Shown one piece after another: positions 5,890 through 34,674 of a DNA stretch of 64,000 nucleotides. Position numbers and translations under genes: made by a program. The stretch spans positions 4,695,001-4,759,000 of the forward strand of contig NZ_CP150096.1 in assembly GCF_038396765.1 (NCBI RefSeq). The letters run 5' to 3'. The notes under the pieces are model-generated. The model was not told the origin of the DNA. It was given only the letters and a program-made list of their open reading frames with translations, and searched no databases. The DNA is from Chitinophaga caseinilytica (lineage in GTDB: Bacteria; Bacteroidota; Bacteroidia; Chitinophagales; Chitinophagaceae). Every line of letters starts with the position of its first letter. Within the stretch, counting starts at the first letter, position 1.

Positions 5890-6978
5890 TCAGTTTTCCT
5901 GCATGGAGATCAGCTGGATGGCATCGGGACAGGCGGCGAAGGCGTCTCTGAGGCGCTCGCCGTGGGTATCGGTGATGAAAACCTGCCCGTAATCGGGCCG
6001 GAGCACCAGTTGAATGAGCCGGGAAACCCGCTCCTGGTCCAGCTTTTCGAACACATCGTCGAGCAGCAGGATGGGAGGGAAGCACTTGTGCGCACGGATC
6101 GCCTCGTATTGTGCCAGCTTGAGCGCGAACAGAAAGCTCTTGCGCTGGCCCTGCGAGGCGCTCGTTTTCATGGGATGCTCGTCGAGCAGGAACAGCAGAT
6201 CGTCGCGATGGATGCCCTGGGTCGTCCGCTGCACCTGCTTGTCCCGCAACCTGGACTGCGCCAGGAGCGTGGCCAGCGGCTGTTCCAGCAACTGGCTCTG
6301 GTAGCGGAAGGCCACGGTTTCGTGGCTGCCGGCGAGGTAATCGTACCGTTCCTGGACCTGGTCGATGAACGCGGGAAGGAATGCCTTCCTGGCTTCGAAC
6401 ACGGGCGTGGCGTGCTGTACGAGCTGTTCGTCGAAGATATCGAGCAGGGGATCGGGGCTCTGGACCATGGAGGCCATGGATTTGAGCAGGGAATTCCGTT
6501 GCTGGAGGATTTTATGGTAGGCGAGGAGATGATCGAGGTAACCGGGCACGAGCTGGGAAAGCAACCCGTCGAGCCACTTGCGGCGGTCTTCGCTGCCGCC
6601 GAGGATGATCTCCGCATCGTCCGGCGCGATCATGACGGCCGGGAAGTGGCCGATATGGCGGGAGAAGCGGTCGTACGGCTCATCGTTGAGCGCGATGTCC
6701 TTTTTCCCGTCTTTGACGGTGCAGACGATCTTTTCGGGTTGGTCGTGGCGGATGAGGGACGCTTCCAGCCGGAAACCGTTCATGGTGTACTGGACGTTCT
6801 GGCTTTCGATGGAGCTGAAATAGCTTTTGGTGAAGCACAGATAATATATGGCGTCGAGCAGGTTGGTTTTGCCCGAACCGTTCCTGCCGGTGATGCCGAC
6901 GATGCGGGAACTGAACCGGAAGGTGCGGTGCGAATAATTCTTGAATTGCGTGAGCGCTATGGAGGATATCGTCAACAA
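5890..6978 (-). CDS. recF: DNA replication and repair protein RecF
   Basis: SMC-like ATPase that loads RecA at gapped DNA with RecO and RecR. The N-terminal signature LTQFKNYSHRTF is followed by Walker A (GRNGSGKTN), ASQGQRKSFLF as the ABC-type signature region, and Walker B (ILLLDDVFEKLD). The length, about 362 residues, is normal. The start is uncertain: there is no ATG near the N terminus, and TTG codons at 7044, 6978 and 6975 are possible. I chose 6978 because family homology begins just after it and the 7044 codon would add an unlikely Ser/His-rich extension. It is divergent from pdhA. Confidence 0.88.
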   Translation of the reverse strand: MLTISSIALTQFKNYSHRTFRFSSRIVGITGRNGSGKTNLLDAIYYLCFTKSYFSSIESQNVQYTMNGFRLEASLIRHDQPEKIVCTVKDGKKDIALNDEPYDRFSRHIGHFPAVMIAPDDAEIILGGSEDRRKWLDGLLSQLVPGYLDHLLAYHKILQQRNSLLKSMASMVQSPDPLLDIFDEQLVQHATPVFEARKAFLPAFIDQVQERYDYLAGSHETVAFRYQSQLLEQPLATLLAQSRLRDKQVQRTTQGIHRDDLLFLLDEHPMKTSASQGQRKSFLFALKLAQYEAIRAHKCFPPILLLDDVFEKLDQERVSRLIQLVLRPDYGQVFITDTHGERLRDAFAACPDAIQLISMQEN

Positions 6979-24382: not shown

Positions 24383-25525
24383 CTATTCCATCAAATCCCG
24401 CGACTTCAACTCCGCCGCCGCTTCCATCAACATGCACCCAGATAGCTGCGTGCTGAGATCCACCGTAGAGCCCGTCGCGCTCCATTTACTGCCGAACAGC
24501 ACCTGCGGCCGCACGGTTGCCTGGAGCCAAAGCGTTTCGGCATTCACCTGTAAAAAACGGACAAACTTCCCGGCATCCGAAGTGGAAATGTTGCCATCTG
24601 TGATCAGGAGCATCATGTACCGCACCAGGATCCCTTTGAAAAGCCCGCCGTCGCCGGCGCCTTCGTCTTTCATAAGGTTTCCCTGCGTCAAATCGCCGGT
24701 CAGGGAGTTGTTGGCGGTTTTCAGCGCGTCGTTCAGGTACACCTGCTCGCCCGTGATCTTGTACAATTCCACGGCTGCGCCGATGAAAACGCCCTGATTA
24801 TAAGTGAATTTCCAGTTTTTGTTGGTGCCTGTGCCATCGAGGCCATCCCAAACAAGGCCAGTTACCGGGTCTACGAGATTGTTCTTCTGCCAGAGATAGA
24901 TTTTCCGTGCCCAGTCCAGGTCTTCAGGACGATGGTCCAGCAGGTACAGTCGCGCTGCGATGATACCGGCGGGCGCGTTGGCGGGGGTATTTTTGTTCTT
25001 GCGCTCCTTGTTCCAGTAAATCCCGCCGCCCCAGGTATCGTCCCATCCGCCTTTGATATCGTTCCACAACGTTTCGGCCACGGTTTTGTACTTCGCATCG
25101 CCCGTCACTTCAAACACCCGGATGCATGCCAACGCCATCCATTCCATATCGTCGTAGAAATGATTGATGTACGTGTTGCCGTTGCGGGTTTTCATCCCGT
25201 CCAGCAAATCGTCCATCCGCGCCTTGATCTGCGGATCGTTTTTCCGGATGTACGCATCCAGCAACACGTCCAGCGCATGAGCGTTCCGCCAGTAATGAAA
25301 GGTATTGGCGCCGCTGTGGTTTTCGTTGAAGTATTTACCGGATGCGTTATAGAAATTGGCGATCAGCGAGTTATACGAAGAATCCGCGATCGAGGGCCAA
25401 TTGAAAACGTATGTTTTCTTTCCCGCGCCCGGGCCGGGCCCATCGTCTACCGGCTCTTTCAAACAGCCGGCAAACGATGTCGCTATCAACACCAACGCAG
25501 CAATATTTTTAATGATTTTCAGCAT
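24383..25525 (-). CDS. GH76 family endo-alpha-1,6-mannanase, lipoprotein
   Basis: A 380-residue lipoprotein (lipobox FAGC near residue 20) of glycoside hydrolase family 76, which cuts alpha-1,6-mannan backbones. The paired catalytic aspartates are in YDDMEWMALA. Other family landmarks are GGGIYWNKERKNKNTPANAPA and FTYNQGVFIGAAVELYKITG, seen as short conserved blocks. The lipid anchor suggests surface display. It is the last gene of PUL 1, 12 bp after susE, and a terminator follows. Confidence 0.93.
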   Translation of the reverse strand: MLKIIKNIAALVLIATSFAGCLKEPVDDGPGPGAGKKTYVFNWPSIADSSYNSLIANFYNASGKYFNENHSGANTFHYWRNAHALDVLLDAYIRKNDPQIKARMDDLLDGMKTRNGNTYINHFYDDMEWMALACIRVFEVTGDAKYKTVAETLWNDIKGGWDDTWGGGIYWNKERKNKNTPANAPAGIIAARLYLLDHRPEDLDWARKIYLWQKNNLVDPVTGLVWDGLDGTGTNKNWKFTYNQGVFIGAAVELYKITGEQVYLNDALKTANNSLTGDLTQGNLMKDEGAGDGGLFKGILVRYMMLLITDGNISTSDAGKFVRFLQVNAETLWLQATVRPQVLFGSKWSATGSTVDLSTQLSGCMLMEAAAELKSRDLME

Positions 25526-25537
25526 GTTGTGTGTTTG

Positions 25538-26665
25538 TTATTTGATAATTACTTCATGCGTATAAGGCTTGTCGGCCCGGAAATACACGTTTACGTCGCA
25601 GGCTTTGGTATCTACTTCGGTCCTGAACTTGTAGCAAAAATTCCAACGATCGCTGTTGGTAATGGTTTTCAGTTCCCAAAACGCGGCGGGCGTCGAGGAA
25701 GTGGGCCGGTTATTGTCGGCATTCGAGCTGCCCCACCATTCCTGTCCGTCCACACCACCATTTTTCACGTTAAGGCGGAATTTGTAGCGTTCGTCGCGGC
25801 CCCAGGATTCCTGTTTGAAGGTGATGACTTTGTCGGTGAACGACCAGGTACTGTTGCCGGCATAGCTCAGTTCGTGCATGATCTTATCGTCTGGCGCAAA
25901 CCACAATCCGATGCCGGTGATTTCGGTGACGGTGACGGCTGCGTTATTGAAATCGAGCCGCAGGCGATATACTTTGGTGCCGCCGGCCTGGGTGGTTTCG
26001 CCGCCTTCGCGGATCAGGCCGTTATCAATGGAGAAAACGTTGGGCGTTCCGCTGTTGCGGTCGGTGAATTTGTATTTGCCGTCTTTGAGCGAAGTATAGA
26101 TTTCGAAGACACCGGCGGTCACGGATTTGAGTTTCAGGGCTTTGGACAGGTCGGCCCCGGTTTCCGTGGCATCTCCGGTCAGGAAAACGTCTACCGGGAT
26201 TTCGGCGAACCCGTTGGGCCGCTCCACTTCGATCACCCGCGCTTCCTTCGCCGGCTGGATGTTAAAACCTTTCGACGCGAGCACCGTCCATTTGATCCGG
26301 CCGGTCCCCAGCGCGGGAATCCCCGCTTTGCCGGCCAGGCTGTTCAGGTCTTTATGCGAGAGGTTCAGTTTATTTTGTACCCCGCCGCCGTCTGACGGGA
26401 TTCTGGCGATGGGATTGCTGAAATCGCCGTTCTCCTTATCGAACGCCACTTCATATAATACCAGCGAACCGTCTTCGGCCCGGGCCTGGTCCCATTCAAA
26501 AAGCACTGACGCGCTGGTGGCGGGCTGTAGCTTGGTGAACTTGTTATTCAGGGGCGCGGTCAGCTTATCGACCGGCTGGATATTGGTGTTCAGTTTGTAA
26601 TCGTCCTTTTTGCAGCCGGCTACCAGGGCGGCCAGGAAGGTTATTATGGAAATATATCTGATCAT
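25538..26665 (-). CDS. SusE/SusF-like surface glycan-binding lipoprotein
   Basis: A 375-residue lipoprotein (lipobox VAGC) with a SusE N-terminal domain (LTAPLNNKFTKLQPATSASVLFEWD) followed by beta-rich domains that carry Trp-rich patches such as GIGLWFAPDD and GQEWWGSSNAD. SusE/F proteins bind glycan at the cell surface and are not enzymes. It sits between susD and the GH76 gene, the usual position in a polysaccharide utilisation locus. Confidence 0.85.
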   Translation of the reverse strand: MIRYISIITFLAALVAGCKKDDYKLNTNIQPVDKLTAPLNNKFTKLQPATSASVLFEWDQARAEDGSLVLYEVAFDKENGDFSNPIARIPSDGGGVQNKLNLSHKDLNSLAGKAGIPALGTGRIKWTVLASKGFNIQPAKEARVIEVERPNGFAEIPVDVFLTGDATETGADLSKALKLKSVTAGVFEIYTSLKDGKYKFTDRNSGTPNVFSIDNGLIREGGETTQAGGTKVYRLRLDFNNAAVTVTEITGIGLWFAPDDKIMHELSYAGNSTWSFTDKVITFKQESWGRDERYKFRLNVKNGGVDGQEWWGSSNADNNRPTSSTPAAFWELKTITNSDRWNFCYKFRTEVDTKACDVNVYFRADKPYTHEVIIK

Positions 26666-26697: not shown

Positions 26698-28308
26698 TTA
26701 CCATTGGGGATTTTGTCCGAGGTTCTTGTTCTGGTCGCGCTCGGCGGTAGGCACGGGCCAGAGGTAATGTTTCGGATTGTCGAACCGGCGGTTTTCCACG
26801 ATGATGTAGCCGTTCGGGTCTTTATTGAACGCGCCCGACGTCACTTTGATCCCGCGGACCGGCCTGGCCAGCACGGTTTCTGCGATTTTCCAGCGGCGGA
26901 TGTCGAATGCCCGGACGCCTTCGAAGGCCAGTTCCGCCCGTCTTTCCCGGCGGATGATGTCCCGGAGCGTAGCCTGGTTGGCCCCTGCGGGAAATTCCGT
27001 GGCGCCGGCATCGGTGAATCCTGCGCGAACGCGAAGGGCGCGGATGGTTTTGTTCCAGGTGTCGGCATCGAGCTGGCCTTGTTCATTCTTCGCTTCGGCG
27101 AACCCGAGCAGCACTTCGGCGTACCGGATCAGCGGGAGGTTGAGGCCGGAAGCATAGTTGGCGGCGGTGGGATCATAATGTTTGCGGAAATAATATCCCG
27201 TGGGAGAAGCGCCCTGGTCGTCGACGCTATTGGTAGCCGGCACGGAGCCCGGCTGCGTGAGGATCGTTTGCGTCCGCCCTTCGAAATCGACGATGGTGCC
27301 GCCGTGATGGATGATCGTGGCGTTGAATCGCGGGTCGCGGTTGACGTAGGGATCGTTTTCGTTATACCCCGAACCGGCTTCCCGGATGCCTTTTCCGTTG
27401 GCCATGATATAATCGTCGACGAGGTCTTGCGTCGGCACGAGCACGCTCCGGAGGAGCGCCACGGTTTGCGGCAGAAAACTGCGCTGGGTGCTGTAGGTGC
27501 GCCCTCCGCCATATTGCAGATCGAGGATCACTTCCTGATTAAATTCATTGGCCGGCCTGAACAGGTTTTCATAACTCCCCAGCAATCCGTACGTTCCGTT
27601 TTGTGTACCGTTCATGAGCGAACCGTATTCCTGCGCGGCGGTTGCCCATTCCCCTTTCCAGAGGCGCACCCGGGCGGCGAGGGCGATGGCGGCGCCACGG
27701 GTGATGCGGCCACGGTCTTTTTCGGCGTAGCTGGTGTTAACGGGCAGATCGTTCCGGATGGCGTTCAATTCTTCCAGCACGAAACGAACGATTTCGTCGC
27801 GGTTTGTACGGCTGATGGTGCGGGCGGCTTCTACGGAAATGAGATCGAGATAGAAAGGTACGCTGCCGAACCAATCGGTCATATTAAAATATGCCCAGGC
27901 GCGGATGAACCTTGCTTCCGCCACGATCCGGCGGCGGAGGAATTCGTCCATCTGCTTCACCTTGGCGATATTCAGTACTACCACATTGCATTTGCGGATG
28001 GCGGCGTAGTGATAGCTCCATTCCGCGCGCACCCGGGCGTGGGCGGCATCGTAGCTTCCCCCGGCAATGAGCGATACACCGCTGAACCCTCCGCCGGCCA
28101 CGTAGGCGTTATCGCTGAGGGCTTCGTTGCCGAAGTAGAAACCGTCGCCGTACATGTTTTCGTAGCAGCTGGTGAGTGCGTCGAGCGCATCCTGCGCGTC
28201 GCGCCAATAGGCTTCTTCCGTGAACTCGCGGGTGTTGGGCTGCTCCAGTTTGCGGCAGCCGGCGGCGAGTACGGAAAGGCATGCTATGGCGAGGATCAAT
28301 TGTTTCAT
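26698..28308 (-). CDS. RagB/SusD family nutrient-binding lipoprotein (PUL 1)
   Basis: A 536-residue SusD homologue that forms the lid on the SusC channel and binds glycan outside the cell. It has a lipoprotein signal (lipobox AAGC at about residue 18), an N-terminal TPR-rich helical part (EARFIRAWAYFNMTDWFGSVPF) and the C-terminal SusD domain (RYAEVLLGFAEAKNEQG, RRERRAELAFEG). The open frame extends upstream, but the ATG at 28,308 gives the signal peptide. It starts 13 bp after susC. Confidence 0.93.
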   Translation of the reverse strand: MKQLILAIACLSVLAAGCRKLEQPNTREFTEEAYWRDAQDALDALTSCYENMYGDGFYFGNEALSDNAYVAGGGFSGVSLIAGGSYDAAHARVRAEWSYHYAAIRKCNVVVLNIAKVKQMDEFLRRRIVAEARFIRAWAYFNMTDWFGSVPFYLDLISVEAARTISRTNRDEIVRFVLEELNAIRNDLPVNTSYAEKDRGRITRGAAIALAARVRLWKGEWATAAQEYGSLMNGTQNGTYGLLGSYENLFRPANEFNQEVILDLQYGGGRTYSTQRSFLPQTVALLRSVLVPTQDLVDDYIMANGKGIREAGSGYNENDPYVNRDPRFNATIIHHGGTIVDFEGRTQTILTQPGSVPATNSVDDQGASPTGYYFRKHYDPTAANYASGLNLPLIRYAEVLLGFAEAKNEQGQLDADTWNKTIRALRVRAGFTDAGATEFPAGANQATLRDIIRRERRAELAFEGVRAFDIRRWKIAETVLARPVRGIKVTSGAFNKDPNGYIIVENRRFDNPKHYLWPVPTAERDQNKNLGQNPQW

Positions 28309-28321
28309 AACGGATTGTTTA

Positions 28322-31300
28322 TCAGAATTTGATGTCGAGCCCGAAAGCGTACGTCGCCGCGTTCGGATAGTTGCGCCCTGCGATGGCGTTATAGTTGGCA
28401 AAGCCCATCTTGTCGTCAAACTGCGTGAATTCAGGGTCTACCCCGATCTCGCGGAATCGTTCAGGCATGAGCGTGAGCAGGTTCTGGCCCGTCAGGTAGA
28501 GCCTTGCGCCCTGGATCCGCAGTCGTTCCGTGAACGATTTGGGGAGCGAATAGCCGAATTGCAGGTTCTTGAGCCGCAGGTATTTGGTGTCGAACATCCA
28601 GTAATCGGAATATGCGAAATTGTTGGCGTTGGCGGTGCCGATGGTGAGCCGCGGATAGGAAGCACCGGGATTGTTGGGCGTCCAGCGGTCGAGGTGCTGC
28701 ACCATGGCGTGGTCTTCATTATTATGGAATGCCTCCACGATATCGCCCCGCAGGAATTGCGAGCGCTTTCCCACGCCCTGCCAGAACATGGTGAAATCGA
28801 AGTTCTTCCAGGTCAGGTTATAATTGATCCCGAAAGTGTACCTGGGGAAAGGGTTGCCGAACACGAAACGGTCGTCTGCATCGATCACGCCGTCTTCATT
28901 GCGGTCTATATACCGGATATCGCCCGGCATCACCTGCTGGTTGAACGCGAAAGGCACTTTGGGCGCGTTTTTCAGGTCGTCCAGGTTTTGATACAGTCCG
29001 TTGGATTTATACCCGAAATACGAAGCGATGGGAAAACCTTCGCGGATGATGTACGCAAAGTCGGAACCGCGGATGGATTCCTGTCCGAACTTCACCACTT
29101 TGTTCAGGTTGTCAGACACGTTTGCGCTGAGGTTATGATGGAAAGCCCCGGTTTTGGCGCGCCAGGACACGGTCACTTCCCATCCCTGGTTGCGCACTTC
29201 GCCGGCGTTCTGGAGGCTGGAGCCGATGCCCGCCGTTCCCGGCACTTCCTGGAAGAGGTAAATGCCGGTGGTCCGTTTGTCGAAATAGTCGAACGAAACG
29301 GCGAGCCGGTTGTCGAGGAATTCCGCGTCTACGCCGTAGTTCGCCATGGCGGAAGTTTCCCATTCGAGCAGCTCGTTGTAGGGCGAAAAGTCTGCGCCGG
29401 CGTTGGCGGTATTGTTAAAGGGATATTTATTGGGGTTGATGGACACGCGCGCCAGGTAATTGAATCCGCCGATATTGGAGTTGCCCACTTTGCCCCAGGA
29501 ATACCGCAGCTTGAAGTTCCCGTATTTGTCGCGGAAATCGTGGAGGAAAGGCTCGTCGGTCACCCGCCATCCCAGCGAAAACGCGGGGAACAATTGCCAG
29601 CGATGGCCGGGCGCGAGTTTGGAGGAACCGTCGTACCGCCAGGTGAACTCCGCCAGGTAGCGCTCTTTGAACACATAGTTGAACCGTCCGAACAGCGAGT
29701 TGAGCGCGAAGAGGTTCGGGTTGACCAGTTCGTTGTACGTGCCGATCGTGGCGTAATCCAGGGTACCGTCGGGCTTGGGGATGTATCCGCCGCCGATGCT
29801 CCAATCCTGATCGAGGTTCGTGGTGCCGTAGCGGGTGGCGCGCAGACCGTAATATTCGTTCACCGCATCGCTCCTGCCGCCCACCTGTGCTTTTACGTAA
29901 TGGTCTTTGGCAAAGGTGTTCTCATATTCCGCCGTGGCGTACACGTTGGTGGTAAGGTCCCTGTACGAAGCGTTCGACTGCTGATTATATATCGGCGGAT
30001 TGGCCGTGGTATAATACGGTGCGTACGAATATTTGTTCTGCCGGTAATAATGGTTGTTGATCGTGTAATTGCCGGATGCGTTGAAGTTGAATTTCAAATG
30101 GTCGACGGGCGTGATGGTCACATCCACACCGCCGAGGAGGTTATCCCTTTCCGTGCGGTTGTACCCGCCGTACACGAGCTGGGCGATGACGTTGTTCGAA
30201 TTGAGCGCGGGCACCACGAAATTATCCAGCGAATCCTTGATCGCGTAAATCCTGGGCGTGCGCATGGCATCGCGCATGAGGATGCCGATATCGGCCTGCT
30301 GGCGGTTGAACCAGGATTTCGTGTAAGCCATGTTCACATTGACCTGCACGTATTTGCTGACTTCCACGCTCACGTTGGCGCGGGCGTTGTATCTGCGGTA
30401 GCCGAGGTCGAGGTCGGAGGGTACGTATTTGTTGCCGAGCATGTTTCCCTGGTTCACATATCCGACGGAAAGCAGGTAGCTGGTGGATTTGCCGCCGCCG
30501 GTGAGGCTGAGGCTATGATTTTGCTGCGGCGTGGATTTGCGGATCATTTCGCGGAGATAGGCGGGCTCGGAGCCGCGGGTCTTCCAGTAACTGATCTGTT
30601 CCGGCGCGTACTGAGGCGTTTTCCCGGAATTCACGAGCGCTTCGTTTTTGAGGGTCATGTATTCCCAGCCTTCCACCTGCCGCGGAAGCGCCGTGGGCGT
30701 TTGCCAGCCGTACATGCCGTTGTACTGGACGGAAGGCCGCTGGTCTTTGGTGCCACGCTTCGTCGTAATATAGATCACGCCGTTTGCCGCCTGCGAACCG
30801 TAGATGGCCGAAGAAGCCGCGTCCTTCAGCACCGAAATACTTTCCACATCGTACGGGTTGAGGTTCTGCAAACCATCGCTGGCCTGTACGCCGTCGATAA
30901 TGATAAGCGGTGCATTGCCCGTCAGCGAGCCTACGCCGCGGATATTGAGCACCATGGAAGCGCCCGGCTCCGCGGTGGCTTGTTGCAGCGTGAGGTTGGG
31001 CGCTACGCCCTGCAGCGCCTGGAACATATTGGTGACGGGCCGGCTTTCGATATCCTTCGTGGAAATGGTGCTGATGGCGGCGGTCACCTGTGTTTTCTTT
31101 TGCGAGCCGTATGCCGTGATCACCACTTCGCTGAGCGCCTTCGAATCGGATTTGAGCAGCACGGTCAATTGGGTGCGGCCGCCGATGGGCACCTCCGTGG
31201 AAAGGTACCCCACAAAGGAGCAGACGAGGATCCCGTTCGCTTCTTCGGCGGGGATTTGCAGCGAGAAATCGCCGGTTTCGCCAGACGCTGTGCCTACAGC

Positions 31301-31816
31301 AGGTTTGCCTTTGAGGCGGATACTAACTCCGGGAAGACCTTCGCCGTTTTCGCCCACCACCCGGCCTTTAATGGTGACGTTTTCCTGCTGCGCGAATACG
31401 GCGGCTGTTACGTTTCCCTGTTTGAGGATGATCTTGTTGTTGATCAGTTCATACCGGATGTCCAGCGGAGAAAGCAGCATATCCAGGATCTCGCTCAACT
31501 GGCGGTCTTTGACATGCAGGGTGATTTTCCGCGAGATGGCGATTTCGTCGTTGGAATACACGAAAACATAAGGCGTTTGCTGCTCGATGCGGTCCAGGAC
31601 AGACGAAAGTTTTTCGTCGCGCACCTGGATGCTGAGGCGGTTTTCCGGTTGTTTGCGGGGATTGTCGCGGGACGGGTCCTTCGATTGCCGGACGGTGCTG
31701 GCGGCCCATGCGTCTTGCGCATGCAGATCGAGCATACACAGGAAAGCTGTGCTGAAGACGATGGCGCGGAGCAACGAACGGAAGCGACCCGGCTTGCAGA
31801 GCGGTCTTACTTTCAT
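28322..31816 (-). CDS. SusC/RagA TonB-dependent transporter with STN domain (PUL 1)
   Basis: A 1,164-residue outer-membrane transporter for oligosaccharides. Domains in order: signal peptide (about 1-40), an STN secretin/TonB N-terminal domain (about 60-130), a carboxypeptidase-regulatory-like domain (GRVVGENGEGLPGVSIRLKG), the plug (VLNIRGVGSLTGNAPLIIIDGV) and a large beta-barrel ending in an aromatic residue. The STN domain is the part that contacts a periplasmic FecR-type anti-sigma factor, which fits the fecR and sigma genes just upstream. The other two SusC proteins in this window lack it. Confidence 0.96.
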   Translation of the reverse strand: MKVRPLCKPGRFRSLLRAIVFSTAFLCMLDLHAQDAWAASTVRQSKDPSRDNPRKQPENRLSIQVRDEKLSSVLDRIEQQTPYVFVYSNDEIAISRKITLHVKDRQLSEILDMLLSPLDIRYELINNKIILKQGNVTAAVFAQQENVTIKGRVVGENGEGLPGVSIRLKGKPAVGTASGETGDFSLQIPAEEANGILVCSFVGYLSTEVPIGGRTQLTVLLKSDSKALSEVVITAYGSQKKTQVTAAISTISTKDIESRPVTNMFQALQGVAPNLTLQQATAEPGASMVLNIRGVGSLTGNAPLIIIDGVQASDGLQNLNPYDVESISVLKDAASSAIYGSQAANGVIYITTKRGTKDQRPSVQYNGMYGWQTPTALPRQVEGWEYMTLKNEALVNSGKTPQYAPEQISYWKTRGSEPAYLREMIRKSTPQQNHSLSLTGGGKSTSYLLSVGYVNQGNMLGNKYVPSDLDLGYRRYNARANVSVEVSKYVQVNVNMAYTKSWFNRQQADIGILMRDAMRTPRIYAIKDSLDNFVVPALNSNNVIAQLVYGGYNRTERDNLLGGVDVTITPVDHLKFNFNASGNYTINNHYYRQNKYSYAPYYTTANPPIYNQQSNASYRDLTTNVYATAEYENTFAKDHYVKAQVGGRSDAVNEYYGLRATRYGTTNLDQDWSIGGGYIPKPDGTLDYATIGTYNELVNPNLFALNSLFGRFNYVFKERYLAEFTWRYDGSSKLAPGHRWQLFPAFSLGWRVTDEPFLHDFRDKYGNFKLRYSWGKVGNSNIGGFNYLARVSINPNKYPFNNTANAGADFSPYNELLEWETSAMANYGVDAEFLDNRLAVSFDYFDKRTTGIYLFQEVPGTAGIGSSLQNAGEVRNQGWEVTVSWRAKTGAFHHNLSANVSDNLNKVVKFGQESIRGSDFAYIIREGFPIASYFGYKSNGLYQNLDDLKNAPKVPFAFNQQVMPGDIRYIDRNEDGVIDADDRFVFGNPFPRYTFGINYNLTWKNFDFTMFWQGVGKRSQFLRGDIVEAFHNNEDHAMVQHLDRWTPNNPGASYPRLTIGTANANNFAYSDYWMFDTKYLRLKNLQFGYSLPKSFTERLRIQGARLYLTGQNLLTLMPERFREIGVDPEFTQFDDKMGFANYNAIAGRNYPNAATYAFGLDIKF

Positions 31817-31851: not shown

Positions 31852-32685
31852 TTATTCACTGATCAGCAGGGTGCTGTCTGTGATGGTATATCGGAAATTT
31901 TTGGATCTGGAAAGGTAGAAGAGGATCTCGGGCAGACTGTTGTTCCGGAAAGCGCCGGTCATGCGGTAATAGCGGGGCGCGTCGGAATTGAACTGTACTT
32001 TTTTCCCGAAGGTCCTTTCGAGTTCGCGGCAGATGTCTTCGAGGGAAGCGTCGCGGAAAACGAGGCCGCCGTCTGTCCAGGCGCGGTCTTCATCGCCGCT
32101 GGTGGCGGATTTTTCCGGTCGTTCGCCTTCGTGATGCCAGGTAACTTTTTCATCGGGTGTGATGTAAAAGGTGTCTGGTGCGCGGGCGTCGTCGTATTTC
32201 GGGATGAAGGCGACTTTCCCGGTGCTGACGGATGTTTGCACGGGTTCGTTATCGTAGGCGCGGACGTTGAACGAGGTGCCGAGTACGCGGATGGTGCCTT
32301 TGCTGAGGTGGACGATGAACGGTTTTTGCGGTGAGCTGGCTACCTGGAAGAAGGCTTCTCCGGTGAGGAACACTTCGCGGCTGCGGGGCCCGAACTGTTC
32401 GGGGTATGATAATTTGGAATCTGCGTTGAGCCAGATTTTGCTACCGTCTGCCAGTTCGAGGACGGCGCGGATGGCTTTCCCGTTTTGCCGGTGGAGCCAT
32501 TGCAGGGTGTCTGTTGCCGGCTGGAAAACTATGGTGTTGGGAATTGGTGTTTTCGACGGGCCCCAAAGAGCCCAGGCGCATCCGATGAGCAGCGCGGCGG
32601 TAGCGGCGACAGACCACCATTTCCAGGCGTTTCCTTTCCGCGATGCGACGGAGATTTCCGGGGATCCGGTATTGGATGGGAGCAT
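31852..32685 (-). CDS. FecR-type anti-sigma factor, C-terminal fragment
   Basis: Membrane and periplasmic part of an anti-sigma factor, 277 residues from the first ATG. It has one membrane helix near residues 24-40 (WWSVAATAALLIGCAWALW), a FecR domain (LADGSKIWLNADSKLSYP, GEAFFQV, GTSFNVRAY) and a C-terminal DUF4974 domain (LEDICRELERTFGKKVQF). The cytoplasmic sigma-binding part is missing and is encoded upstream at 32,972-33,397 in another frame. Adding one base at each of two C5 tracts in the intervening repeat would join both parts into one 515-residue protein. As it stands, this piece could only be made by reinitiation. Confidence 0.8.
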   Translation of the reverse strand: MLPSNTGSPEISVASRKGNAWKWWSVAATAALLIGCAWALWGPSKTPIPNTIVFQPATDTLQWLHRQNGKAIRAVLELADGSKIWLNADSKLSYPEQFGPRSREVFLTGEAFFQVASSPQKPFIVHLSKGTIRVLGTSFNVRAYDNEPVQTSVSTGKVAFIPKYDDARAPDTFYITPDEKVTWHHEGERPEKSATSGDEDRAWTDGGLVFRDASLEDICRELERTFGKKVQFNSDAPRYYRMTGAFRNNSLPEILFYLSRSKNFRYTITDSTLLISE

Positions 32686-32761
32686 GCGTTCGGTAGTATT
32701 TTCCGGAGTGTTTGGGCCCGCGGAAGGGATGTTGCCGGTCGCATTTTCAAAGTTGTTGAGG

Positions 32762-33149
32762 TTGGATGAGGGATCGTTTGGATGGAGGTTGCTGAGGAGG
32801 TTTTGGGGGTGTTGGATGAGGGATTTGATTGGCGGTCGCTGGCGAATGGGTTGGATGAGGAATCAGCTACCCGGTTGACGTCGGAGTTTTGGAGGGTGTT
32901 GGATGAATTATTCGCTGCGCGGTTGCTGGCGAATGTGTTGGATGAGGAATCAGTTAGACGGTTGGCATTGGCTATGTTGGATGAGGACTCAGATACGCGG
33001 TTGCCGTCTGAGTTTTGGGGGGTGTTGGATGAGGGATTTGATTGGCGGTTACCGTCGAATTTGTTGGATGAGGAATCAGTTGGACGGTTGCCGTCGATTG
33101 TGTTGAATGAGGGATCAGAAACACGGTTGCCGTCTGAGTTTTGGGGGTG
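32762..33149 (-). repeat. Nine-unit 39/48-bp tandem repeat inside fecR
   Basis: Nine units start with TTGGATGAG (plus-strand view) or a close variant at 32762, 32812, 32851, 32899, 32938, 32977, 33025, 33064 and 33103. In that order they are 50, 39, 48, 39, 39, 48, 39, 39 and 47 bp long. The order 48-39-39 recurs, giving a higher-order period of about 126 bp. In one minus-strand frame all units are open and encode Asn/Ser-rich 13- or 16-residue repeats with the core GNRxxxxSSN. That frame breaks only at C5 tracts in the first and last units (plus-strand G5 at 33143-33147 and 32805-32809). The matching tract in the unit at 32977 has six (33017-33022). Confidence 0.9.
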
Positions 33150-33397
33150 TTGAAATTCGGAGATGAATGCGACTCATTAGAACGGATCCTATCGAGCAGG
33201 CGCGTGAGGGCTTGCTCGGTGTCTGCCGAGGCATGAATGGGCGTATCGGAGCAATAGCGCTGGATGAGTTGTGCGCGCGATTGCTGCGAGGGATCCTGGG
33301 CGAGGAGGTTCTCCAGTTCGCGCAGGTCTGCATCCGAAGCTTCGCCCGCCAGCCGGGCCGCCAATAACCGTGTGATTCTTTCTTCGTTCGTCATCAT
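32972..33397 (-). CDS. FecR-type anti-sigma factor, N-terminal fragment
   Basis: Encodes the cytoplasmic anti-sigma domain (about residues 1-76, TNEERITRLLAARLAGEASD, LENLLAQDPSQQSRA), typical of FecR proteins that bind ECF sigma factors. The frame then enters the tandem repeat, shifts at a C5 tract and stops at a TAG in the unit at 32,938, giving 141 residues with an out-of-frame His/Pro/Thr-rich tail. The membrane helix and periplasmic domain are encoded downstream (31,852-32,685). In FecR of E. coli the isolated N-terminal part is known to keep the sigma factor active, so this truncation could leave PUL 1 switched on. Confidence 0.75.
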   Translation of the reverse strand: MMTNEERITRLLAARLAGEASDADLRELENLLAQDPSQQSRAQLIQRYCSDTPIHASADTEQALTRLLDRIRSNESHSSPNFNTPKTQTATVFLIPHSTQSTATVQLIPHPTNSTVTANQIPHPTPPKTQTATAYLSPHPT

Positions 33398-34092
33398 TCA
33401 TACATGGAACCTTTCAGACGTTGGACGGCCAAATGCCAAACCGGTTTCGGATTTCCGCGAACCGTTGCAACGTTGCCCGCTGCCTGATGGTCAAATTCAT
33501 AAATATTACTTCCTTACTGATTCATCCGATGGATGTGATGTAAAATCTTCACTCCCCTACCTTCCCCTATCCTATCTATAATCAATGGTTGAAATTTTTC
33601 AACTTCAGATTTGAATTATTTCATAACACCCTGACATACAGCGAACATTCTGACGCAAGCGATCTATAACCATCATTCCAACTCAAATCCAGTTTATCAA
33701 AACAATTCACCGATGTTCGTACTGAAAATTTCCACTTCCAGTTCATTTGTCACATCATCTATCAACCCAACGCGATCCAGGCATTCAAACCAGTTCTAAA
33801 ACCTCACCTGACAAGCTTTTGAATGTTCTTCCGGCATGACATTTTCAATCAAACCAACAACAAGTCTCTTTCACTTTTAATATTCACTTTTTGTCTGAAA
33901 CCATTATCTGACATACATTTCGATATTCTACCTTCATCAGCATTCTCCATCAAACCAACAACAATTTCATTCACCCCAATCTTCACTTTCCACCTGAATC
34001 CTCTACATGACAAGCTTTTGAATATCCTTCCTGCATAGGTTTCCCCTTCTCAATCCATCAATCCCCATTCACCCTAATATTCAAAATCCCCA
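33398..34092. other. 695-bp AT-rich gap between fecR and its sigma gene
   Basis: ECF sigma and FecR genes are normally adjacent, but here about 0.7 kb of AT-rich sequence without a credible ORF separates them. It contains a degenerate ~100-bp repeat (33,807-34,032). I see no terminator or clear promoter box in it. Confidence 0.6.
33807..34032. repeat. Degenerate ~100-bp direct repeat, about 2.3 copies
   Basis: Copies begin at about 33,808 (CTGACAAGCTTTTGAATGTT), 33,908 (CTGACATACATTTCGATATT) and 34,007 (ATGACAAGCTTTTGAATATC). The first two share the block TCAAACCAACAACAA at the same offset. The copies are diverged. Earlier sequence back to about 33,700 may hold further decayed copies. Confidence 0.65.
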
Positions 34093-34674
34093 TCACGTTC
34101 CTCCTTTCCGGAACTTCTCCGGCAGCCACTGGCCCACGGCGGCCTGCAGGCGGCGAACGGCACGTACGAGCTGCGTTTCCACGGTGCGGGGCGAAATGTT
34201 GAGTATCTGGGCCACCTCTTTATACCGGAAACCTTCTTCCTTGATAAGCCGGAACACTTTACGGCATTGATCGGGCAATTGATTGACTTCCCGGTCCAGC
34301 CGCGCCACCATCTCCTTCCATTCCAGGTCGCGGCCGGGATCGTTGCCGTTGGACAATTCCCACTCGCCATTGCCCATGGGCATCACCCGCATCACGGAAT
34401 ACTTCTCCAGGTAATTGTACGCCGCATTCCGGACAGACACGAACAGGTACACCTCCAGGTTCGCTACCTCCATCAACTGCGCACGCCGCTCCCATATCCT
34501 GACGAACACGTCGGACACCACTTCTTCCGCAGCTTCCCGCGAATGCACATATTGCTGGCAAAATCGAATTAGCCGATCATAAAAAAGCCTGAACAGCGAT
34601 GCAAAAGCTTGTTCGCTGTCACAACGTGCAATTTGCGCTTGCAACTCCCGTATGTGTTTGTTGCTTTCCGGCAT
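34093..34674 (-). CDS. ECF RNA polymerase sigma factor (FecI-like)
   Basis: A 193-residue sigma-70-family factor of the type that drives SusC/D loci. Region 2 lies at about residues 20-90 (FASLFRLFYDRLIRFC, VVSDVFVRIWERR) and region 4 at about 120-180 (LPDQCRKVFRLIKEEGFRYKE, then ILNISPRTVETQLVRAVRRL). It begins PUL 1 and would be held by the FecR protein encoded 0.7 kb downstream, whose gene is split here. It probably activates susC (28,322-31,816) and following genes. Confidence 0.93.
   Translation of the reverse strand: MPESNKHIRELQAQIARCDSEQAFASLFRLFYDRLIRFCQQYVHSREAAEEVVSDVFVRIWERRAQLMEVANLEVYLFVSVRNAAYNYLEKYSVMRVMPMGNGEWELSNGNDPGRDLEWKEMVARLDREVNQLPDQCRKVFRLIKEEGFRYKEVAQILNISPRTVETQLVRAVRRLQAAVGQWLPEKFRKGGT

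Follow-up and report, generated by a model that had tools for sequence, protein, structure and literature searches.

The stretch of DNA analysed here, referred to as the window, comprises 64,000 nucleotides (positions 4,695,001–4,759,000) of the genome G000, which is assembled as a single contig of 6.52 Mb. On its minus strand, the window carries a gene for an ECF sigma factor (34093..34674, 193 aa; TIGR02985, 144.9 bits against a cut-off of 126.4; Pfam Sigma70_r2 and Sigma70_r4_2), the partner of a FecR-type anti-sigma factor whose closest named relatives are from Chitinophaga. The two genes are separated by a gap of 695 bp containing a degenerate non-coding repeat (33795..34036, minus strand; 2.4 copies of 99 bp as called by TRF on the gap), which was not seen in the sigma–fecR gap of the relative G035, where matches did not exceed 19 bp. 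In the assembly, fecR is present as two minus-strand pieces. The first (32972..33397) encodes the N-terminal cytoplasmic domain of about 80 residues, followed by a repeat array read out of frame; its first 75 residues are 71% identical to those of the orthologues from G035 and G006, and it matched no Pfam or NCBIfam profile. The second (31852..32685) encodes 277 residues from an ATG at 32685, comprising a transmembrane helix, a FecR domain (PF04773, 64.1 bits against a cut-off of 24) and a FecR_C domain (PF16344, 60.8 bits). Downstream, on the same strand, lie genes for a SusC protein with an STN signalling domain (28322..31816, 1164 aa; TIGR04056, 846 bits; PF07660), SusD (26698..28419; PF07980, 188 bits), a SusE-like protein (25538..26665; PF14292) and a GH76 enzyme (24383..25525; PF03663, 158.5 bits), a family that we take to include α-mannanases and that fits the mannan PUL label given to the locus. 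The SusC and sigma genes are open frames. Among the 18 relative loci compared, a SusC gene of the same type lies downstream in all (partial at a contig end in one, L090), and 17 have, in the conserved order, an upstream sigma gene with 56% identity or more. The locus is an ordinary cell-surface-signalling unit, composed of an ECF sigma factor, a FecR anti-sigma factor and an STN-bearing SusC, ahead of a GH76 PUL; FecR is the putative regulator of its partner sigma factor.

The fecR region read on the minus strand from 33397 to 31852 spans 1546 nt (3 × 515 + 1). As the original prediction had stated, its domains are encoded in separate frames: the N domain in frame 0, which extends over 141 aa from 33397 to its stop at 32972, the array in frame 2 and the membrane/periplasmic part in frame 1, as an ORF at 32685–31852 (277 aa) belonging to a stop-free stretch that begins within the array. 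Frames 0 and 1 have no stop-free overlap in common. The array (32800..33152, minus strand) is built of 39-, 39- and 48-bp units forming a 126-bp superunit, and the nine 39/48-bp repeats described earlier were recovered as eight unit cores, spaced by 39, 39, 48, 39, 39, 48 and 39 bp, plus a last NTPQN start. The array was also called independently by TRF (period 126 bp, 83% matches), so that chance is not an issue. Frame 2 alone is open across it, frames 0 and 1 both hitting stops there, and the previously reported C5, C6 and C5 tracts were found at the same positions. A C5 tract in the first unit (33143..33147) marks the passage from frame 0 to frame 2 and another in the last unit (32805..32809) that from frame 2 to frame 1, both in the −1 sense, while the frame is kept at the C6 tract of the fourth unit (33017..33022) and at the CCCTCC that takes the corresponding position in the seventh unit (32891..32896). 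The unit spacings are multiples of 3 throughout, except at the two C5 tracts. Differences among the eight units show no excess at third codon positions; the amino-acid sequence of the array is therefore not visibly constrained, and a coding role is neither supported nor excluded by this comparison.

A protein query consisting of the three native fecR pieces joined by X ranked first P0001, a protein of 473 residues encoded on a contig of 6,525,546 bp and 98% identical over the full 277-aa part. P0001 is a single intact FecR that reads through the array in frame and has NTPQN at both positions where the frame breaks in the window (...SSPNFNTPQNSDGNRV... and ...NPSSNTPQNLLSNLHPND...). As an independent protein, it bears out the gene model of the original prediction, in which the pieces belong to one gene properly read in the array frame and NTPQN is recreated once the frame is restored. 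Given the identity over the whole 277-aa part, P0001 probably comes from another strain of this species. P0001 does not contain units 1–3 and has 42 residues fewer than the 515 implied for the window, which corresponds to one 126-bp superunit; the copy number of the array thus differs by a whole in-frame superunit in this one pair of presumed conspecific strains. Three members on two contigs are listed for the cluster of the 277-aa piece; either another assembly may carry this break as well, which would weigh against an under-call, or one record may be present twice.

Orthologues were searched for in 59 genomes including G000, of which 35 of the others belong to the same genus. Among the matches listed from the other genomes, the best 23 orthologues of the genus (identity of 55% or more) are all open, with no stop, and in the two nearest, from G006 and G035, the linker joining the N domain to the membrane helix is shorter than 20 residues and has no array. 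Relatives are generally short, with 118 of the best 120 of 917 proteins not exceeding 368 aa. The linker of P0001 is 133 residues above the median of 43 measurable relatives; that of the more distant P0002, which is also open, is about 139 residues above the median and differs in sequence, and P0034 has about 47 extra linker residues, in frame, in a protein cut short in its periplasmic part. Long linkers therefore arose in a small group of relatives, and they are in frame in all three of these proteins. The array DNA was found in its own genome as the window copy only, and was absent from the matches listed in 78 other genomes of the genus, for each of which at most four candidates were scored. 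Together with the short linkers of G006 and G035, this suggests that the array is probably young.

A structure model of P0001, of low overall confidence (mean pLDDT of 63.9) and used for domain layout only, displays a four-helix N domain (helices within residues 4–75), a helix at residues 220–237 and a β-rich periplasmic domain. Residues 78–212, which make up the linker, almost all have pLDDT values below 50, with block means of 34–43. The linker of the window FecR is read, on the basis of this model, as a disordered segment. Comparison of coding sequences gave dN values to the outgroup G032 of 0.209 for the C part of the window gene versus 0.236 for G035, and of 0.538 versus 0.491 for the 75-codon N part, where the window is slightly higher; between the window and G035, the dN/dS ratios of the C and N parts are 0.13 and 0.26, respectively. 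These values show no clear rise in dN, the N part being slightly higher, and the unit lengths remain multiples of 3, for which reasons an old pseudogene is not the preferred reading.

The homopolymer spectrum of 464 kb of G000 was compared with that of 629 kb from the relatives G006, G032 and G003, G006 being classed as a short-read assembly solely on its 530 contigs. The ratio of G/C6 to G/C5 runs is 34:371 in G000 versus 69:445 in the relatives (p = 0.020), 41% lower; G/C runs of at least 7 number one versus nine (p = 0.049) and A/T runs of at least 9 none versus eight (p = 0.055), whereas A/T6 and A/T5 runs show no deficit (378:1192 versus 546:1612, p = 0.40). The three tests that point to a deficit give, combined, p = 0.003, although two of them share G/C counts and each alone is weak. 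With a relative G/C6 shortage of 41%, two miscalls among three C6 tracts would be unremarkable. A tblastn frameshift scan, in which homologues covered 114 of the 464 kb of G000, returned two candidate shifts, compared with one in 93 kb of G006 and two in 131 kb of G035; not all candidates were convincing, and the scan undercounts, as it missed the window fecR itself. Elsewhere in G000, in L191 (G000:C1:4900001-4920000), a SusC-like and an adjoining SusD-like gene each contain one frame change (near 6455 and 10701), which may reflect either a decaying PUL or more indel errors, and the late shift of a SusD gene near 4.906 Mb escapes a test based on open-frame length. In another genome, G094, with a listed completeness of 65%, several FecR frames are short, as an error-rich assembly would give.

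The most likely explanation for these observations, and one in which we place reasonable confidence, is that the window encodes a FecR anti-sigma factor of the ordinary kind, whose repeat linker is disordered and varies in length without loss of frame, and that two homopolymer under-calls split its gene in the assembly. Sequencing error, which the original prediction had named as its own alternative, is now the leading explanation. We infer that both C5 tracts were miscalled from the anatomy of the gene, the intact P0001, its single length difference and the homopolymer deficit. In the cell, fecR would then most likely be read, like the gene for P0001, in one uninterrupted frame. The cytoplasmic linker connecting the sigma-binding domain to the membrane helix would have grown into a tandem-repeat linker in this lineage, its length changing in frame by whole 126-bp superunits. 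SusC would signal to the periplasmic domain of FecR, proteolysis of FecR would follow and the N-terminal domain would then control the sigma factor.

Recent, strain-private mutations at the two C5 tracts are less likely than under-calls, and we regard them as an unlikely alternative. If the frameshifts are real, full-length FecR has been lost, leaving a free N domain with a nonsense tail and perhaps a re-initiated membrane piece. The sequence as given is in keeping with this reading, as are the open SusC and sigma genes of the window. The earlier claim that the free N-terminal part of FecR can keep its sigma factor active is supported for Escherichia coli, in which N-terminal fragments of FecR render FecI constitutively active (PMC9249621; PMC8144685). 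Expression of the PUL might consequently be constitutive or blocked, as the effect could go either way. Against real frameshifts stand the requirement for two independent lesions in a gene without clear decay otherwise, the intact state of the near-identical P0001 and the homopolymer deficit of G000.

Other FecR genes of the genome also bear on this alternative. G000 contains 74 FecR domain matches, and 50 of the 74 loci were inspected, including the window and some picked for unusual frame length. In four further FecR genes of G000 (L067, L108, L109 and L112, near 5.154, 1.659, 1.372 and 6.241 Mb of G000:C1), the frame likewise changes past an intact N domain, seemingly at a homopolymer or next to one. 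The lesions of L108 and L109 apparently lie at A5/T5 runs, for which G000 shows no deficit, and L109 is open in all five relatives searched; at least some FecR lesions of G000 may therefore be real. At L067, the gene is broken at an A7 run both in G000 and in G035 (L128, G035:C1:5469800-5472500), while in G006 (L146) the run is A8 and the gene is open, so that the break points to miscalling or simple slippage; the shared A7 break is either a common miscalling or a real slippery site. A conserved programmed frameshift at this site common to G000 and G035 was also considered, and is weakened by the open A8 gene of G006. Judged by frame length, at least five of 74 FecR genes are broken, versus two of 112 SusD genes in G000, a difference that is not significant (p = 0.12). 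An observation of another kind was made in G035, where L131 (G035:C1:5107600-5110200) holds a sigma factor and a FecR in one 608-codon open frame, representing a fusion or a lost stop.

Improbable, in our estimation, is a mechanism in which units carrying C5 or C6 tracts, and hence forming superunits of 125 or 126 bp, recombine by unequal exchange and thereby both adjust the length of the linker and flip the frame, freeing the N-terminal pro-/anti-sigma domain. The FecR linkers of this lineage would on this view be dials whose length changes rapidly. When units 1 and 4 are joined in silico, the 5′ array junction of P0001 is obtained and the frame shifts at a stroke; the second frame break remains. 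Were the two C5 tracts real and such exchange to occur, recombination between repeats, and not homopolymer slippage, would reset the PUL.

A phase switch driven by slippage in the C tracts, as put forward in the original prediction, has a still slimmer chance of being correct. The frame changes do sit at C runs, and lengths of 5 and 6 both occur among the units. However, the lesions lie in two separate tracts and one slip cannot undo both, which excludes a one-step switch for the window allele; because both tracts would need to change together, a switch of this kind was rejected for this allele. In addition, the nearest orthologues have no array, none appears among the matches listed in other genomes of the genus, tracts of five or six C are short for a contingency locus, and the assembly shows signs of under-calling. 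Programmed −1 frameshifting that would yield some full-length FecR from the split gene is the least credible reading, since, although both shifts are in the −1 sense and, in the paralogue L067, two species share a shift of this kind at one A7 site, two recoding events would be required per message and the third species, with its A8 run, has a plain open gene at L067.

Returning to the preferred reading of an in-frame repeat linker with two under-called tracts, arrays placed after the N domain and ahead of the membrane helix were found in three of the 50 FecR loci inspected. Besides the window, these are L086 (G000:C1:2817918-2821196), with 18-bp units in an open frame of 509 aa, and L107 (G000:C1:303000-306500), with 108-bp units in an open frame of 583 aa. 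L132, the apparent G035 counterpart of L086, has no array. A search with L107 gave five matches, the four close ones being proteins of 338–340 aa without an array; as the protein of L107 itself was absent from its match list, this search says nothing about copy number. A count over 464 kb of G000 gave seven arrays with about three copies or more, two of them in FecR genes, and no enrichment of arrays in FecR genes is claimed, given that the window was not randomly chosen. Tandem repeats were also seen near two other FecR loci of G000, in L065 (150–387; 123 bp, 1.9 copies) and L082 (806–1036; 76 bp, three copies). No description of repeat arrays in FecR linkers was found in the literature searched, of which coverage was partial.

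The analysis removes a tempting regulatory switch, and indicates that homopolymer frame breaks in tandem arrays of single-contig genomes need to be checked first against a second genome. What remains are repeat linkers at the same place in a small fraction of FecR loci, one of which differs in length between near-identical proteins. Should linker length influence how the sigma-binding domain is released, the strength of the PUL response to the glycan would vary from strain to strain.

The window FecR resembles the anti-/pro-sigma factors of the FecR family, such as E. coli FecR and Pseudomonas FpvR, PupR and FoxR, in its cytoplasmic N domain, single membrane helix and periplasmic PF04773 domain, and in the position of its gene beside those of an ECF sigma factor and an STN-bearing TonB-dependent transporter; the N-terminal helical domain and the one membrane helix are also displayed by the P0001 model. 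It differs from these proteins in its FecR_C domain (PF16344), in its array-bearing linker and in a frame broken twice in the assembly, which in P0001 is continuous. Contingency genes governed by homopolymer slippage are known, for example, in Neisseria and Helicobacter, and as in these genes the window fecR contains coding-region homopolymers whose length sets the frame; in contrast to them, its tracts are only 5–6 nt long and two must change together. Intragenic in-frame minisatellites vary in copy number between strains, and the array shares with them a unit length that is a multiple of 3, a whole-superunit difference between two genomes and a low sequence constraint, but, unlike the minisatellites of surface proteins, it lies in an anti-sigma factor, within the cytoplasmic linker.
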